From: Methylobacter sp. BlB1
GTDB taxonomy: Bacteria > Pseudomonadota > Gammaproteobacteria > Methylococcales > Methylomonadaceae
Direction: 5' to 3'
Length of the DNA stretch: 64,000 bases
Assembly (NCBI RefSeq): GCF_015476545.1
Contig: NZ_JADMKV010000001.1
Location: forward strand, 124,001-188,000
In this document: piece by piece, positions 40,240 to 45,998 of the stretch
Position numbering within the stretch: the first letter of the stretch is position 1
Layout: the number at the start of each line of letters is the position of its first letter
Notes under the pieces: generated by a model
The model's input: only the letters and a program-made list of their open reading frames with translations
Database searches by the model: none
What the model was told of the DNA's origin: nothing
Made by a program: the position numbers and the translations under genes

Positions 40240-42024
40240 ATGAAACAATTCATTCAGGATCTTGCAGAAAAACACAACAACCAGGAAAAACAGCTGCTTC
40301 AGATCCTGCGAGAGATTCAGGCCTGCTACCATTATATCCCGGAACAGGCGATAGAACAGTTATCCGGATTATTGTCCATTCCCCGGACGCGAATCACCGG
40401 CGTAGTCGAATTCTACAGCTTTTTGCACTTGACCCCCAGGGGGCAGTATGAACTGCTGATCAGCGATTGCATTACCGACCACATGCGGGACAAAAAAGAC
40501 CTGACCGGTTATTTGGCAGAAAAACTGAACGTGGCTGTCGGCGCGGTGCGTAAAGACGGCTTGGTTAGCCTCGATAACACCTCCTGTACGGGCATGTGTG
40601 ATCAGGGCCCTGCCGGCATGGTTAACGGCTATGCCTTAACCCGTCTGGACCGGGACCGGATTGACCGGATCGCTGATTTGATCAATCGCCGGGAGCCATT
40701 GGCTGCGTGGCCGGCTGATCTGTTCTATGTCGACGACACTGTAGCCAAGCCAGGGCTTTTATTAAAACAGCCCATTATGCAAGGCGCCGCGCTCAGAGCG
40801 GCCTTTAAAAGAGGTCTGAAAGCCACGCTGGCGGAAATTGAGCAATCCGGTTTGCGAGGCCGAGGCGGAGCCGGTTTCAAGACGGCCATGAAATGGGCGT
40901 TTTGCACCGGTGAAGCTCAGAGCGAGCGCTATGTCGTCTGTAACGCCGATGAAGGCGAGCCCGGCACATTTAAGGATCGAGTGCTGTTGAATTCCTTTGC
41001 ACATCAGGTCTTTGAAGGCATGACCCTGTGCGCAGCGATTACCGGCGCCAGGCAGGGCTTCCTGTATTTGCGCGGCGAGTATCTGCACCTCTATGACCGT
41101 TTACAGGAAATCTTGCATCAACGCAGACAGGCTGGCCTGCTAGGAAGCAATATTCTCAGGGAGGGGCTGGATTTTGATATCGACATCCACCTCGGCGCTG
41201 GCGCTTATATCTGCGGTGAAGAATCGGCACTGATCGAATCGCTGGAAGGCAAGGCGGGCATTCCGCGCAACCGCCCGCCTTATCCCGTTACGCACGGGTA
41301 TCTCGGCAAGCCGACGGTAGTCAACAATGTCGAGACATTTTTTGCCGCGAGCGCGATTGCCGTCAATGGCGCCGACTGGTTCACACAGGTTGGAACGGAG
41401 AAATCAGCGGGTACGAAAATTCTCAGCATCAGCGGGGACTGCGCCAGACCCGGCATCTATGAATATGCGTTCGGCACAACCATTCAGACGGTATTGAATG
41501 ATTGCGGTGCGATGGATGTGCTGGGCGTGCAGATGGGCGGTCCTTCCGGCACGTTTATTTCCAACCAGGAATTCGACCGCAAGCTGGCTTTCGAGGATCT
41601 GGCAACCGGCGGATCAGTCATTATCTTTAACGAAAGCCGTAACATTTTCGATATCGTCCATAACTTCACGCACTTTTTTGCGCATGAAAGCTGCGGATTT
41701 TGCACGCCATGCCGGGTTGGAACTTCGTTATTGAGGAAGCAGGTCGCTAAAATTCATGAAGGGCATGGCTCGGCCGGCGATGTCGCGGCCCTTGAAGAAT
41801 TGGGCCGGCTGATCAAGGGCTACAGTCACTGCGGCCTGGGGCAAACGGCCGCCAATCCGGTGCTGACGACTTTGGAGCGCTATCCTGAGCTGTATCAGAA
41901 CAAATTGAAGAAAATCAGTTACGAGCCGGGATTTGATCTGGATGGGGCGCTGGATATCGCCAGACGCCTGGCTCAGCGCGATGATGCCGCGGCTCATTTA
42001 TCTCAGGTGGGGGATCATGACTAA
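40240..42024 (+). CDS. hoxF: NAD-reducing hydrogenase diaphorase subunit HoxF
   Basis: HoxF carries the FMN- and NAD(H)-binding site of the soluble bidirectional [NiFe]-hydrogenase HoxFUYH. The 594-residue protein fuses a NuoE-like domain (about 1-150) to a NuoF-like domain (about 160-594), as in Ralstonia eutropha HoxF. Visible sites are GLRGRGGAGF (about 204-213), NADEGEPGTFKDR, GAYICGEESALIESLEG and the 4Fe-4S ligands Cys485, Cys488, Cys491 and Cys531. In the NuoE-like part Cys77, Cys116 and Cys120 are seen, but the position five residues after Cys77 is Met, so the usual four-cysteine 2Fe-2S set is incomplete. It overlaps hoxU by 8 bases. Confidence 0.94.
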   Translation: MKQFIQDLAEKHNNQEKQLLQILREIQACYHYIPEQAIEQLSGLLSIPRTRITGVVEFYSFLHLTPRGQYELLISDCITDHMRDKKDLTGYLAEKLNVAVGAVRKDGLVSLDNTSCTGMCDQGPAGMVNGYALTRLDRDRIDRIADLINRREPLAAWPADLFYVDDTVAKPGLLLKQPIMQGAALRAAFKRGLKATLAEIEQSGLRGRGGAGFKTAMKWAFCTGEAQSERYVVCNADEGEPGTFKDRVLLNSFAHQVFEGMTLCAAITGARQGFLYLRGEYLHLYDRLQEILHQRRQAGLLGSNILREGLDFDIDIHLGAGAYICGEESALIESLEGKAGIPRNRPPYPVTHGYLGKPTVVNNVETFFAASAIAVNGADWFTQVGTEKSAGTKILSISGDCARPGIYEYAFGTTIQTVLNDCGAMDVLGVQMGGPSGTFISNQEFDRKLAFEDLATGGSVIIFNESRNIFDIVHNFTHFFAHESCGFCTPCRVGTSLLRKQVAKIHEGHGSAGDVAALEELGRLIKGYSHCGLGQTAANPVLTTLERYPELYQNKLKKISYEPGFDLDGALDIARRLAQRDDAAAHLSQVGDHD

Positions 42025-42733
42025 AACCATTACGATTGACGGCAAGACCATCCCTTTCGAAGAGGGGCAGACCATTATGGAGGCCGCGGCTGCGGCCGGC
42101 GTTTATATCCCGCATTTGTGCCATCATCCGGAATACGCGCCGCACGGCAGCTGCAAGCTGTGCTCGGTCTCCGTGAATGGCCGGTCCTGCACTGCCTGCA
42201 CATTCCCGGCCATGGAAGGGCAGGAAATACTCAATGACACCAGGGAACTGAATGACAGCCGGCGCAGAATCACACAAATGCTGTTCGTGGAAGGCAATCA
42301 TTTATGCCCGGGCTGCGAAAAAAGCGGCAATTGCCAGTTGCAGGCCGTCGGCTATTACCTGAATATGCTCGACAACCATTTCCTGCACTTCTTTCAACCG
42401 CGTCAACTGGATGCTTCGCATCCCGATGTGCTGGTCGATCGCAACCGCTGCATTTTTTGTACGCTGTGCGTGCGTGCCAGTCATAGGGATGGCAAGGACG
42501 TGTTCGCGATCAGCGGCCGCGGCATCAACAAGCGGCTGATTTTCAATTCCGAGAGCGGCCTGTTAAAGGACACCGATCTGGACGTCAATGATCGGGCCGC
42601 GCATATCTGTCCTACTGGGGCCATTCTGATCAAACGCACCGGATTTACTGTCCCGATCGGCGAGCGCCTGTTTGACGACAAGACCATTGCCGAAACCAGT
42701 CTGGATTATGAACGGGGTAATCATGACGGATAA
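42017..42733 (+). CDS. hoxU: NAD-reducing hydrogenase diaphorase subunit HoxU
   Basis: HoxU is the electron-transfer subunit between HoxF and the hydrogenase module, equivalent to the N-terminus of NuoG. The ATG at 42017 overlaps the hoxF stop by 8 bases and gives 238 residues. Its cluster ligands are visible: a 2Fe-2S ferredoxin set (HLCHHPEY, GSCKLC, SCTAC), a His-Cys set (NHLCPGCEKSGNC) and a 4Fe-4S set (NRCIFCTLC with a later HICPTG). The order and size match HoxU of group 3d enzymes. It overlaps hoxY by 11 bases. Confidence 0.94.
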   Translation: MTKTITIDGKTIPFEEGQTIMEAAAAAGVYIPHLCHHPEYAPHGSCKLCSVSVNGRSCTACTFPAMEGQEILNDTRELNDSRRRITQMLFVEGNHLCPGCEKSGNCQLQAVGYYLNMLDNHFLHFFQPRQLDASHPDVLVDRNRCIFCTLCVRASHRDGKDVFAISGRGINKRLIFNSESGLLKDTDLDVNDRAAHICPTGAILIKRTGFTVPIGERLFDDKTIAETSLDYERGNHDG

Positions 42734-43262
42734 AGTCAAAGTAGCAACCGTGTCGCTGGCAGGCTGTTTCGGCTGCCATATGTCGCTGCTCGATATTGAT
42801 GAACGCATAGTGCAGCTGGCTGATCAGGTTGAATTCATCCGCTCGCCGCTTACCGATATAAAGCGCTGCACCGATTGCGATATAGGTCTGATCGAGGGCG
42901 GGGTGTGCAACTCGGAAAATGTTCATACACTACGGGAATTTCGCAAGCACTGCAGGATTCTGGTAGCTGTCGGCGCCTGCGCCATTAACGGCGGCCTGCC
43001 CAATTATAGAAATTATGTGCCGCTGGAAGAATGTCTGGGGGAATCTTATCTGGACGGGATCGGCGTCGAGAACCCGCATATCCCCAATGATCCCGAGCTG
43101 CCTTTGTTACTGGACAAGGTGTATCCGGTGCATGAAGTCGTCAAGATTGACTATTTTCTACCGGGCTGCCCGCCTGCGGCTGATGTATTCTGGAAATTCC
43201 TGACCGATCTGCTGGAAGGGCGCGACCCTGCACTGCCTTATGAATTGATCCACTACGACTAG
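42723..43262 (+). CDS. hoxY: NAD-reducing hydrogenase small subunit HoxY
   Basis: HoxY is the small subunit of the hydrogenase dimer and holds the single cluster next to the [NiFe] site. The ATG at 42723 gives 179 residues, much shorter than membrane-bound hydrogenase small subunits, and there is no twin-arginine signal, as expected for a cytoplasmic enzyme. The ligands of the proximal 4Fe-4S cluster are placed in AGCFGCHMS (Cys15, Cys18), VGACAINGG and PGCPPAAD. hoxH begins directly after its stop. Confidence 0.93.
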   Translation: MTDKVKVATVSLAGCFGCHMSLLDIDERIVQLADQVEFIRSPLTDIKRCTDCDIGLIEGGVCNSENVHTLREFRKHCRILVAVGACAINGGLPNYRNYVPLEECLGESYLDGIGVENPHIPNDPELPLLLDKVYPVHEVVKIDYFLPGCPPAADVFWKFLTDLLEGRDPALPYELIHYD

Positions 43263-44771
43263 ATGCCTATGTACGATTATTTGGAAACGGCCGAAAATCC
43301 GGAAAACCTGAAGCGCGTTGCCATCGATCAGGTTTCGCGCGTCGAAGGGCACGGCAAGATCACCTTACTGCTGGATCAGGACAACAAAGTCAAACAGGCC
43401 CGGCTGCATATCGTCGAATTCCGGGGCTTCGAGCGTTTCATGCAGGGCCGGCCTTACTGGGAGTTTCCGGTTATCGTGCAGCGCCTGTGCGGCATTTGTC
43501 CGATCAGCCATCAATTGGCCGCCGGCAAGGCCATCGATCAACTGGTCGGCGTTGATCCGCAGAATTTGCCGCCTGCCGCCGACAAGCTAAGGCGCCTGCT
43601 GCACTTCGGGCAGGTGCTGCAGTCCCATGCCTTGCATTTCTTTTATCTGGCCAGTCCGGATTTGCTGTTCGGCTTTGAAAGCGATCTCAATAAGCGCCAC
43701 ATTGTGGCCGTACTGGAAGCCTATCCGGATATCGGCCTGCAGGGCATCAAGCTGCGCAAATACGGTCAGGAAGTCATCCGCATGATCTGCGGCAAACGCA
43801 TACATGGGACGGGGGCCATTGCCGGCGGCATGAACAAGTCCTTGACTCAGACAGAGCGTGACTACCTGCTGCAGGATATCGATCAGATAATAGCTTGGGC
43901 GGCAGGCGCAGTAGAACTGGTTAAAAAGGTGCACGGCTCCAACCTGCCGTATTACGATCAGTTTGCCGCGATACGCAGTAATTATCTGGGCCTAACCAGG
44001 CCTGACGGCGCGCTGGAGCTTTATCATGGCGGCTTGCGCGCCAGGAACGATAAAGGCGAGACCATCATCGATCATGTAGACTATTGCCGATATAACGACT
44101 ATATCCATGAAGAAGTACGTTCATGGAGCTATATGAAATTCCCTTATCTATTGGCGCTGGGCAAGGAGAACGGTTGGTATCGCGTAGGTCCTTTGGCTCG
44201 CGTCAATAACTGCGATTACATCGATACGCCGTTAGCGGAAACTGCGCGGCTGGAATTCAAGGCGTACGGCGGTGAAGCCATGGTGCACAGCACGCTGGCT
44301 TATCATTGGACGCGCATGATCGAAGCCCTGCATTGCGCCGAACGCATCAAGGAACTGCTGAACGATCCTGAAATCATGAGCCACGATCTGGTTGCGAAAG
44401 GTGAGAAACGCTGTGAAGGCATTGGCGTGATCGAGGCGCCGCGCGGCACATTGTTTCATCATTACCGTGCCAACGAAGACGGTCTTGTCACCAAGGTGAA
44501 TCTGATCGTTTCGACCACTAGCAACAATATGGCCATGAATGAGTCCGTGCGACAGGTCGCGTCAGAGTATCTGTCCGGTCAGGAATTGACGGAGCCGTTG
44601 TTAAATAATCTGGAGGTCGCCGTTCGCGCCTATGATCCCTGTTTGTCCTGCGCGACGCATGCCGTCGGAAAAATGCCGCTGCAGCTGGAATTGATCGATG
44701 TAGAAGGCAAGCTGATCGATAGGCTGGTCAGGCACAGCGACGGTGAATTCGAGCATAACCTGGATGGTTAA
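43263..44771 (+). CDS. hoxH: NAD-reducing hydrogenase large subunit HoxH
   Basis: HoxH carries the [NiFe] active site that oxidises or produces H2. The 502-residue protein contains the L1 motif RLCGICPISH with Cys76 and Cys79, and the C-terminal L2 motif DPCLSCATH with Cys460 and Cys463, the four metal-binding cysteines. All are present, so the active site looks intact. Maturation in the family cuts after the His of the last motif; here that would remove 36 residues, a fairly long tail. The matching protease gene hoxW overlaps its 3' end by 8 bases. Confidence 0.95.
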   Translation: MPMYDYLETAENPENLKRVAIDQVSRVEGHGKITLLLDQDNKVKQARLHIVEFRGFERFMQGRPYWEFPVIVQRLCGICPISHQLAAGKAIDQLVGVDPQNLPPAADKLRRLLHFGQVLQSHALHFFYLASPDLLFGFESDLNKRHIVAVLEAYPDIGLQGIKLRKYGQEVIRMICGKRIHGTGAIAGGMNKSLTQTERDYLLQDIDQIIAWAAGAVELVKKVHGSNLPYYDQFAAIRSNYLGLTRPDGALELYHGGLRARNDKGETIIDHVDYCRYNDYIHEEVRSWSYMKFPYLLALGKENGWYRVGPLARVNNCDYIDTPLAETARLEFKAYGGEAMVHSTLAYHWTRMIEALHCAERIKELLNDPEIMSHDLVAKGEKRCEGIGVIEAPRGTLFHHYRANEDGLVTKVNLIVSTTSNNMAMNESVRQVASEYLSGQELTEPLLNNLEVAVRAYDPCLSCATHAVGKMPLQLELIDVEGKLIDRLVRHSDGEFEHNLDG

Positions 44772-45264
44772 GCCGGTCCTGCTATTCGGCTATGGGAATC
44801 TCAGCCGCGGCGACGATGCCCTGGGGCCGCTGTTGCTGGAGTTCGTTGAATCCCATTTGGACCTGGACAATATCGATATATTATCCGATTTTCAGCTGCA
44901 GATCGAACATGCGCTGGATCTTGAGAACAGAGCTTTGGTTTTGTTTGTCGATGCGTCCGTATCCTGCGCGAAAGCATTCGATTTTGCCGAACTCAGTCCG
45001 GCACGCGACAAAAGCTACAGCACACACGCACTGAATCCTTCCGCGGTTCTGGCCGTGTATCAGGATGTCAAGAAACAAACGCCGCCGCCGTGTTTCCTGC
45101 TGAGCATTAGAGCGCAGCAATTCGAATTCGGCTCCGGATTGAGCCTGGAAGCTGAGGTTTGCTTAACGCAGGCCAGTCAGCTTGCGGCACTGTTATTGAA
45201 TAATCCGGCGCTCGGTTTTTGGCGGCGGCAGGCAACGTCATGCAAGGAAGAGAGTCATGCATGA
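44764..45264 (+). CDS. hoxW: HoxW-type hydrogenase maturation protease
   Basis: HoxW is the endopeptidase that trims the HoxH C-terminus after nickel insertion. The ATG at 44764 overlaps the hoxH stop and gives 166 residues; a GTG at 44743 is in frame but would overlap more. The family features FGYGNLSRGDDALGP (conserved Gly and Asp) and LFVDAS, with a later YSTHALNP and LSIRAQQFEFG, are visible. It is the fifth gene of the operon and overlaps the start of the broken hypA. Confidence 0.9.
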   Translation: MVKPVLLFGYGNLSRGDDALGPLLLEFVESHLDLDNIDILSDFQLQIEHALDLENRALVLFVDASVSCAKAFDFAELSPARDKSYSTHALNPSAVLAVYQDVKKQTPPPCFLLSIRAQQFEFGSGLSLEAEVCLTQASQLAALLLNNPALGFWRRQATSCKEESHA

Positions 45265-45521
45265 GATGTCATTGCTTGAAAATGTGCGGGAAACGCTGGA
45301 AAAAACATGCTAAAAGCCAGGCCACCAGGATGATACTGGAAATCGGCAAGTTGTCCTTTTGTAGATCCGGCCGCCTTGCGGTTTGGTTTCAATATGATCA
45401 TGAAGGGCTCGCTCAATATGCCGGACAGATTAATCCAGCCTTTCAGATCATCAAGTTATCGGCGGCCAAAGGCGGTTATTTCTTCGATCGGCTGGCCCGG
45501 AATATCAAGTCGGCGTCGTAA
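45257..45521 (+). pseudogene. hypA: Degenerate hypA (nickel-insertion accessory gene)
   Basis: HypA delivers nickel to [NiFe]-hydrogenases together with HypB. Here the family's start is plain: MHEMSLLENVRETLEK at 45257, overlapping the hoxW end, but TAA interrupts after 18 codons. The continuation appears in a second frame as ILEIGKLS (about 45333-45356), a third as ALRFGFNMIMKGSLN (45373-45417), and again the second as GGYFFDRL near the end. At least three frame changes are needed. The remnant is about 88 codons against about 113 for the family, and the zinc-binding CxxC pairs are missing. The gene cannot make a working HypA. Its position after hoxW matches the hyp genes of the R. eutropha operon. 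Confidence 0.75.
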
Positions 45522-45557
45522 GCGGCTGACTATCTGGAAAAAGATTGATTTAATAAA

Positions 45558-45586
45558 TTGACATGCCTGGAATGCCCATATAGAAT
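45558..45586 (+). promoter_or_regulatory. Promoter and long leader of the cold-shock gene
   Basis: TTGACA (45558-45563), 17 bases and TAGAAT (45581-45586) form a near-perfect promoter. The predicted start near 45593 leaves a leader of about 150 bases before the ATG at 45743. Long leaders that refold at low temperature are a known feature of cspA-type mRNAs. Confidence 0.7.
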
Positions 45587-45742
45587 GACCGTTAGCTCGA
45601 AATACGATTTACCGCATGTTTATCTTTACGAAGTTCTTCTGTAGTTGCTCGTCCTGTTTATCATTAAGTAATTCTTCATTTCCCAGCTCCACCGGCCTTA
45701 ACAGGCTAAATTACTAATTTTTATTTTAATAGGATTGCAATT

Positions 45743-45952
45743 ATGGCTTCCACTACTACCGGTACCGTTAAATGGTTTAACTCTGAAAAAGGCTTCGGCT
45801 TTATTCAACAAGAAAACGGCCCTGATGTATTTGTTCATTTTCGTAACATTAACGGCTCCGGCTTTAAATCCCTTGATGAAGGCCAAAGAGTACAGTTTGT
45901 TGTGACTCAAGGCCAAAAAGGCCCGCAAGCAGAAGAAGTAACTATCATCTAA
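45743..45952 (+). CDS. Cold-shock domain protein (CspA family)
   Basis: A 69-residue single cold-shock domain that binds single-stranded RNA and DNA and acts as an RNA chaperone. The RNA-binding motifs are KGFGFIQ (RNP1, about 16-22) and VFVHF (RNP2, about 29-33), and the chain starts with the typical TGTVKWFN. It is a stand-alone gene with its own promoter, a long leader and a strong terminator. Which paralogue it is (cspA, cspD, cspE) cannot be decided from the sequence. Confidence 0.95.
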
Positions 45953-45959
45953 TTTGCGT

Positions 45960-45998
45960 AAAAGCCGTAGCAGTCAAAAGGCTGCTACGGCTTTTTTA
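45960..45998 (+). terminator. Rho-independent terminator after the cold-shock gene
   Basis: AAGCCGTAGCAG and CTGCTACGGCTT form a perfect 12-bp stem with an 8-base loop and a TTTTTT run. The A-run on the 5' side lets it also serve the opposing DUF3465 gene. Confidence 0.9.

Follow-up and report, generated by a model that had tools for sequence, protein, structure and literature searches.

The hox operon and the region behind it

The window (the whole stretch of 64,000 nucleotides that was analysed) carries the genes hoxF-U-Y-H-W in this order, all five of them open (Table 1). Judged from their sequences, they are predicted to encode an NAD-reducing [NiFe] hydrogenase with NAD-linked H2 turnover. 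HoxU was matched by the NCBIfam model PRK07569 with 156.6 bits (cut-off 333), and the N-terminus of HoxF by the HoxE model PRK07571 with 64 bits (cut-off 224). HoxH keeps both CxxC pairs of nickel ligands, CGIC at 76 and CLSC at 460, and its C-terminal tail is present beyond the second pair. A preliminary description of this DNA had called the five genes intact, which agrees with their open frames, the ligands of HoxH and the score of HoxW. The end of hoxW overlaps the start of a hypA remnant by 8 bases.

Table 1. Features of the hox operon, of the hyp scar behind it and of the adjoining region
Feature	Position	Strand	Description	Basis
hoxF	40240..42024	+	diaphorase subunit, fused NuoE-like N-terminal domain, intact	Pfam 2Fe-2S_thioredx and Complex1_51K
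hoxU	42017..42733	+	intact	NCBIfam HoxU model, match below its cut-off
hoxY	42723..43262	+	small hydrogenase subunit, intact	Pfam Oxidored_q6
hoxH	43263..44771	+	[NiFe] large subunit	Pfam NiFeSe_Hases
hoxW	44764..45264	+	maturation protease, intact	TIGR00072 hydrog_prot, 73 bits, cut-off 47.45
hypA remnant	45257..45414	+	codons ~1-56 over three successive frames, TAA after codon 18	blastn, tblastn
hypB remnant	45414..45521	+	C-terminal end, frame ending at TAA 45519-45521	blastn, tblastn, synteny
cspA-type leader of next gene	45591..45742	+	right of the scar, outside the hyp locus	RF01766

Remnants of hypA and hypB

The preliminary description had read a broken hypA from three segments, each in a different frame, and these were found where it had placed them: MHEMSLLENVRETLEK occupies 45257-45304, the stretch 45306-45356 includes the ILEIGKLS strand, and ALRFGFNMIMKGSL falls inside 45361-45414. 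The early stop codon was present as described, and the loss of the zinc CxxC region was traced to a deletion, with hypB sequence following from codon ~56 on. MHEMSLLENVRETLEK keeps the MHE start of the HypA N-terminus, the His2 of which is taken to be nickel-binding in HypA. HypA (PF01155) is recognised by one continuous frame of ~113 codons and by a zinc site with two CxxC pairs; the remnant has neither. The HypA identity of the three segments was tested by tblastn together with shuffled sequences. On 45201-45560, the hox-linked HypA of a related locus (L018) gave a colinear tblastn chain of 83.2 bits; the best of 1000 dinucleotide shuffles of this stretch reached 30.0 bits, and 0/1000 attained the score of the HypA chain. 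The comparison argues for shared descent of the remnant with HypA. The 100-aa open reading frame that spans the scar matched no Pfam family.

The whole interval 45257-45521 had been assigned to hypA in the preliminary description. This holds for 45257-45414, while 45414-45521 is the in-frame 3' end of hypB. In blastn comparisons with two related loci (L030 and L035), window positions 45250-45413 corresponded to the 5' part of hypA, and 45413-45481 to the 3' end of hypB, located ~0.87-0.9 kb farther downstream; a third locus (L038) gave the same layout in broken pieces. With hox-linked HypB sequences as queries, tblastn matched the hypB piece at E values of ~1e-7 to 2e-6; in the alignment to the L021 HypB (E ~1e-7), QYAGQINPAFQIIKLSAAKGGYF of the window pairs with NYARQVNPNIQIIQLSATKGDNF. 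The GTPase domain of HypB (TIGR00073) is absent, and the last codons alone are left. In the shuffle test of the hypB piece alone, 4/1000 shuffles reached its chained score of 34.3 bits, the highest being 42.7 bits. This piece is thus within chance when taken by itself, and its assignment, the weaker of the two, draws mainly on synteny and on a sister genome (G003), the hypB piece of which was matched at E values of 2e-34 and 3e-35. The alignments identify the locus as a hypA::hypB fusion formed by a deletion of ~0.9 kb, in which hypA lost its zinc-binding half and hypB all but its 3' end. The loss of hypB and the fusion scar were missed in the first reading of the sequence.

The locus in related genomes

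The same-genus set comprised the genome of the window (G000) and three others (G001, G002 and G003). Comparison of the locus in these close relatives, as the preliminary description had proposed, revealed a scar in common with G002, another junction in G003 and no recognisable hypA or hypB remnant behind hoxW in G001. G002, an assembly of 3 contigs with 92% identity across the region, has the junction and frame changes of the window, with a stop at hypA codon 6 where the window has TAA after codon 18. In G003 (L097), 3' of hoxW, codons 1-6 of hypA continue in frame with the C-terminal third of hypB, beginning at VTEGDDKP, and this fusion is open for 96 codons. Because G003 keeps a part of hypB that is absent in the window, and the window keeps a part of hypA that is absent in G003, neither deletion derives from the other under vertical descent. 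Under the same premise, the junctions indicate at least two hypA/hypB deletions since the common ancestor. Yet another junction is seen in a Methylobacter MAG (L015), where hypA codons 18-50 lead into hypB from Phe-Asp-Val, a triplet common to hypA and hypB. In the intact loci L021 and L030, both genes carry TTTTGATGT at the place of this junction, and slippage between short direct repeats is therefore plausible at L015.

The stretch downstream of hoxH was surveyed at 79 loci (up to 4 kb past hoxH, with several loci per genome in some cases and a few stretches shorter than 1 kb). A full or nearly full hypA was found at 15 of them. Scar pieces besides that of the window were present at L015, L096 (G002) and L097 (G003), and hypB alone was kept at L103 and L182, both from G030. 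In the latter genome (L182, L176), hypB directly follows hoxW, hypA is gone there, and the sole HypA of the genome is a hox-type copy elsewhere; hypA and hypB can thus part company.

At L021, the same two genes as in the window, labelled lpxC and dciA on the assumption that these names apply, are followed by hoxFUYHW, hypA and hypB, neither hyp gene being broken. In the Methylococcaceae bacterium of the window, too, the hox operon very probably once had the order hoxFUYHW-hypA-hypB, which relatives have kept.

A HypA tree of 64 rows was calculated from few columns, which left many forks open; G051 and G072 (HypA below the score filter) and ten later-surveyed genomes were omitted, and six HypA-less genomes have no row. 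The spliced hypA remnant was placed in a 20-row clade with 19 hox-type HypA (support 99/83). Its grouping with the four working HypA of the genus was rejected (p-AU 0.0197, for a group named after the tree had been seen). The other HypA comprise a mainly hypC-neighboured lineage (15 rows, 100/100) and forms that are hup-neighboured or unplaced. In five cases (G030, G079, G091, G092 and G094), a hox-type HypA is located at a distance from hoxW. The working HypA of the window's genome shares 45-52% identity with hox-type HypA from relatives.

A second, complete hyp gene set

The preliminary description had considered that maturation might be provided by another hyp set elsewhere, and a genome-wide profile search located one: contig C122 of G000 carries intact hypA, hypB, hypC, hypD, hypE and hypF, all above the NCBIfam cut-offs. 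The HypA encoded there is the only one above the cut-off (127 bits vs 28.9), five weaker matches lying below it, and in a count covering HypA, HypB, HypD and HypF each was found once in the genome. The set adjoins a second [NiFe] hydrogenase, whose small subunit scored above the TIGR00391 cut-off; its large subunit reached 756 bits with Pfam and 928 bits with the best NCBIfam model, below the cut-off of 1101. Accessory genes for HybE, HupH, HyaE, a protease, cytochrome b and HupE are present, and from gene sets of this kind the enzyme is presumed to be an uptake hydrogenase. The gene label hupK is likewise a presumed one. G001, G002 and G003 all carry this cluster, and the flank on its hypF side is the same in each.

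Within this hup-hyp cluster (L007, G000:C122 36000-55000; counterparts L165-L167), dS to G003 and G001 was 0.20-0.48 for most genes. Three genes were exceptions with 0.55-0.69, and genes of the window region had 0.32-1.37 in the same comparisons. Arrival of the cluster after the species split was considered in view of these low values, but the hypF-side flank is shared by all four genomes of the genus, which makes presence before the split the simpler assumption. Later homologous exchange between species, or codon constraint, could lie behind the low dS.

Copy number of HypA and HypB

The survey of copy numbers was based on 46 of 80 HoxH loci (from Methylococcales or likely so) and on 40 of 61 genomes; seven genomes, identified by identical contig coordinates, were common to both, giving 79 genomes selected by a HoxH match. 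The 40 genomes consisted of 30 and ten more with hoxH matches, the match in G047 being short. HypA was found in 73 of the 79 genomes, once in 72 and twice in G071, and the same figures (73/79, once in 72, twice in G071) were obtained for HypB above the cut-off; second HypB-like matches at ~77-85 bits fell below the cut-off of 121.2 and were excluded from the count. The exception, G071, has two HypA, two HypB and two HypD on 711 contigs. HypD, sought in 69 of the 79 genomes, gave a match in 65 and a score above the cut-off in 64.

The sole HypA was the hox-linked copy in 14/69 genomes; in five more, among the ten later-surveyed genomes, coordinates alone place a HypA no farther than 1.3 kb from the hoxH match. 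HypA was located away from hoxW in 50 of the 64 HypA-bearing genomes among these 69, so that it is common for a hox operon to have no hypA of its own.

Among the 79 genomes, no HypA was found in G006, G011, G029, G073, G090 and G093, and the same six had no HypB above the cut-off. G006, G011 and G029 are 96-100% complete and had been chosen for HoxH, and yet lack HypA and HypB above the cut-offs; G006 and G011 (L189, L190) keep HypC, HypD and HypE. HypF had no match in G006 and G090. Between hoxW and hypE of G006 (L181, 7305-14172) lies an open reading frame that is presumed, by eye, to encode a sugar kinase-like protein. The use of HypA-less genomes as proof that HypAB is dispensable was rejected, G073, G090 and G093 being MAGs or a symbiont draft in which assembly gaps are possible; many of the surveyed genomes are MAGs, which makes absences soft. 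For G006, G011 and G029, an assembly gap and a HypAB-free nickel loading are both possible.

Sequence evolution of the hox genes and of the scar

In the four genomes of the genus, hoxF, hoxU, hoxY, hoxH and hoxW contain no stop in the aligned stretch (hoxW of G001 was aligned over 160 of 165 residues). All 30 pairwise dN/dS values of the hox genes were between 0.035 and 0.121, with 0.055-0.100 for hoxF. Between the window and G002, 47 of 279 aligned sites of the scar differ (JC 0.19), and a further 6 columns are gaps. This divergence is similar to the dS of genes in the window region, which lies at 0.04-0.46 and mostly at ~0.2. By position, the differences in the scar number 21, 17 and 9, with no excess at third positions. 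The Hox enzyme is retained without decay, and the scar drifts like neutral DNA. These values do not support the second possibility raised in the preliminary description, progressive loss of the enzyme.

Positions 45560-45743 are far better conserved than the scar, with 181/184 bases identical to G002, 175/183 to G003 and 163/178 to G001. The leader of the cold-shock gene there was matched by the Rfam cspA thermoregulator model RF01766 at 45591-45994 (E 1.9e-11); the score of 49.5 bits falls short of the gathering score, 78.

Interpretation of the scar

This locus shows ordinary pseudogenisation, unusual only in its recurrence and in the one-pair pattern. Very probably, the HypAB pair dedicated to the Hox enzyme became redundant and disappeared more than once, and HoxH is presumably loaded by the pair encoded next to the second hydrogenase. 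As the sequence shows, a deletion of ~0.9 kb brought the 5' half of hypA up against the final codons of hypB, and the remainder was disrupted by frameshifts and a stop. With a complete hypABCDEF set beside the second hydrogenase, the hox-linked pair may have become spare and its loss cheap, and separate losses in sister species, visible in their differing end states, may have had the same cause. Maturation would then begin with insertion of the Fe(CN)2CO group into HoxH by HypCDEF, followed by nickel loading through HypA and HypB of the other set, and end with trimming of HoxH by its own HoxW. HypA and HypB form a complex that delivers nickel to the large subunit, and high nickel can bypass both, according to PMC12134894. 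The same source states that bacteria with several hydrogenases can have HypA paralogues, which may confer specificity (PMC12134894); since HypA paralogues can be hydrogenase-specific, the working HypA might serve HoxH poorly. The six of 79 genomes that lack HypA and HypB are not explained by redundancy.

That hypA and hypB are really intact and were broken by an assembly or sequencing error is highly improbable. The window does come from a draft assembly of 227 contigs, but the occurrence of the same junction and frame changes in the independently assembled G002 argues against sequencing error, the scar has drifted between the two genomes like neutral DNA, and nothing above the HypA and HypB cut-offs was found genome-wide except the copies on C122. 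Decay of the whole Hox enzyme, with hypAB as the first part to go, has somewhat more in its favour and is still improbable: the divergence of hoxW exceeds that of hoxF, hoxU, hoxY and hoxH (dN up to 0.119; dS 0.46 vs 0.26-0.32 between G000 and G002), but the absence of stops, the low dN/dS in all five genes and the retained ligands of HoxH in the window speak against decay, as does the frequent location of HypA away from hoxW. There is hardly any likelihood that the fused remnant is a functional small protein and not a pseudogene. A frame of 100 codons spans the scar in the window, and the fusion in G003 is in frame; however, the spanning frame is lost in G002 through a gap, the divergence looks neutral, no Pfam family was matched, and G001 has no recognisable remnant.

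A different account of the one-pair pattern, considered rather unlikely, is that these methanotrophs are pressed to keep one HypA-HypB pair of any lineage, hox-, hup- or hypC-neighboured, although several have more than one hydrogenase. If so, the scars would reflect more than the passive disappearance of a spare copy: two divergent pairs might interfere, for instance through mixed HypA-HypB complexes, and one would displace the other repeatedly. Selection can maintain a hydrogenase operon that lacks nickel chaperones of its own, given another hyp set, and hox operons without an adjoining intact hypA should not be called dead on that ground alone. Repeated independent erosion, together with one HypA in 72/73 genomes, offers a natural test of the interchangeability of HypAB between hydrogenases. 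No title on hypAB loss in methanotrophs was present among the literature matches listed.

Comparison with known systems

The membrane-bound hydrogenase of Cupriavidus necator (Ralstonia eutropha) presumably has its own pair, hypA1B1. The preliminary description had placed hypA2-hypB2-hypF2 behind the soluble-hydrogenase genes of this organism, as does the gene table in PMC3702609 with the order hoxFUYHWI-hypA2B2F2. According to this source, the arrangement is like that of the window, with NAD-reducing hydrogenase genes followed by hypA and hypB, but the hypA2B2 pair of C. necator works, whereas the hox-linked pair of the window is a deletion scar (PMC3702609). The same source describes functional overlap in the maturation of the soluble and the membrane-bound enzyme, and a moderate effect, partly restored by nickel, when HypA2B2 was omitted in an E. 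coli expression system (PMC3702609).

In other Methylococcaceae with hox-linked hypAB (e.g. L021, L030 and L018), the genes occupy the same place behind hoxW and are of the same HypA lineage as the remnant; there they are intact and encode the sole HypA found in the genome, whereas the window has a scar. Escherichia coli, with HypA and its paralogue HybF, resembles the present case in having HypA paralogues together with more than one hydrogenase, according to PMC12134894. It keeps both HypA and HybF, whereas a single HypA is the rule in the present survey (72 of 73 genomes with any HypA).
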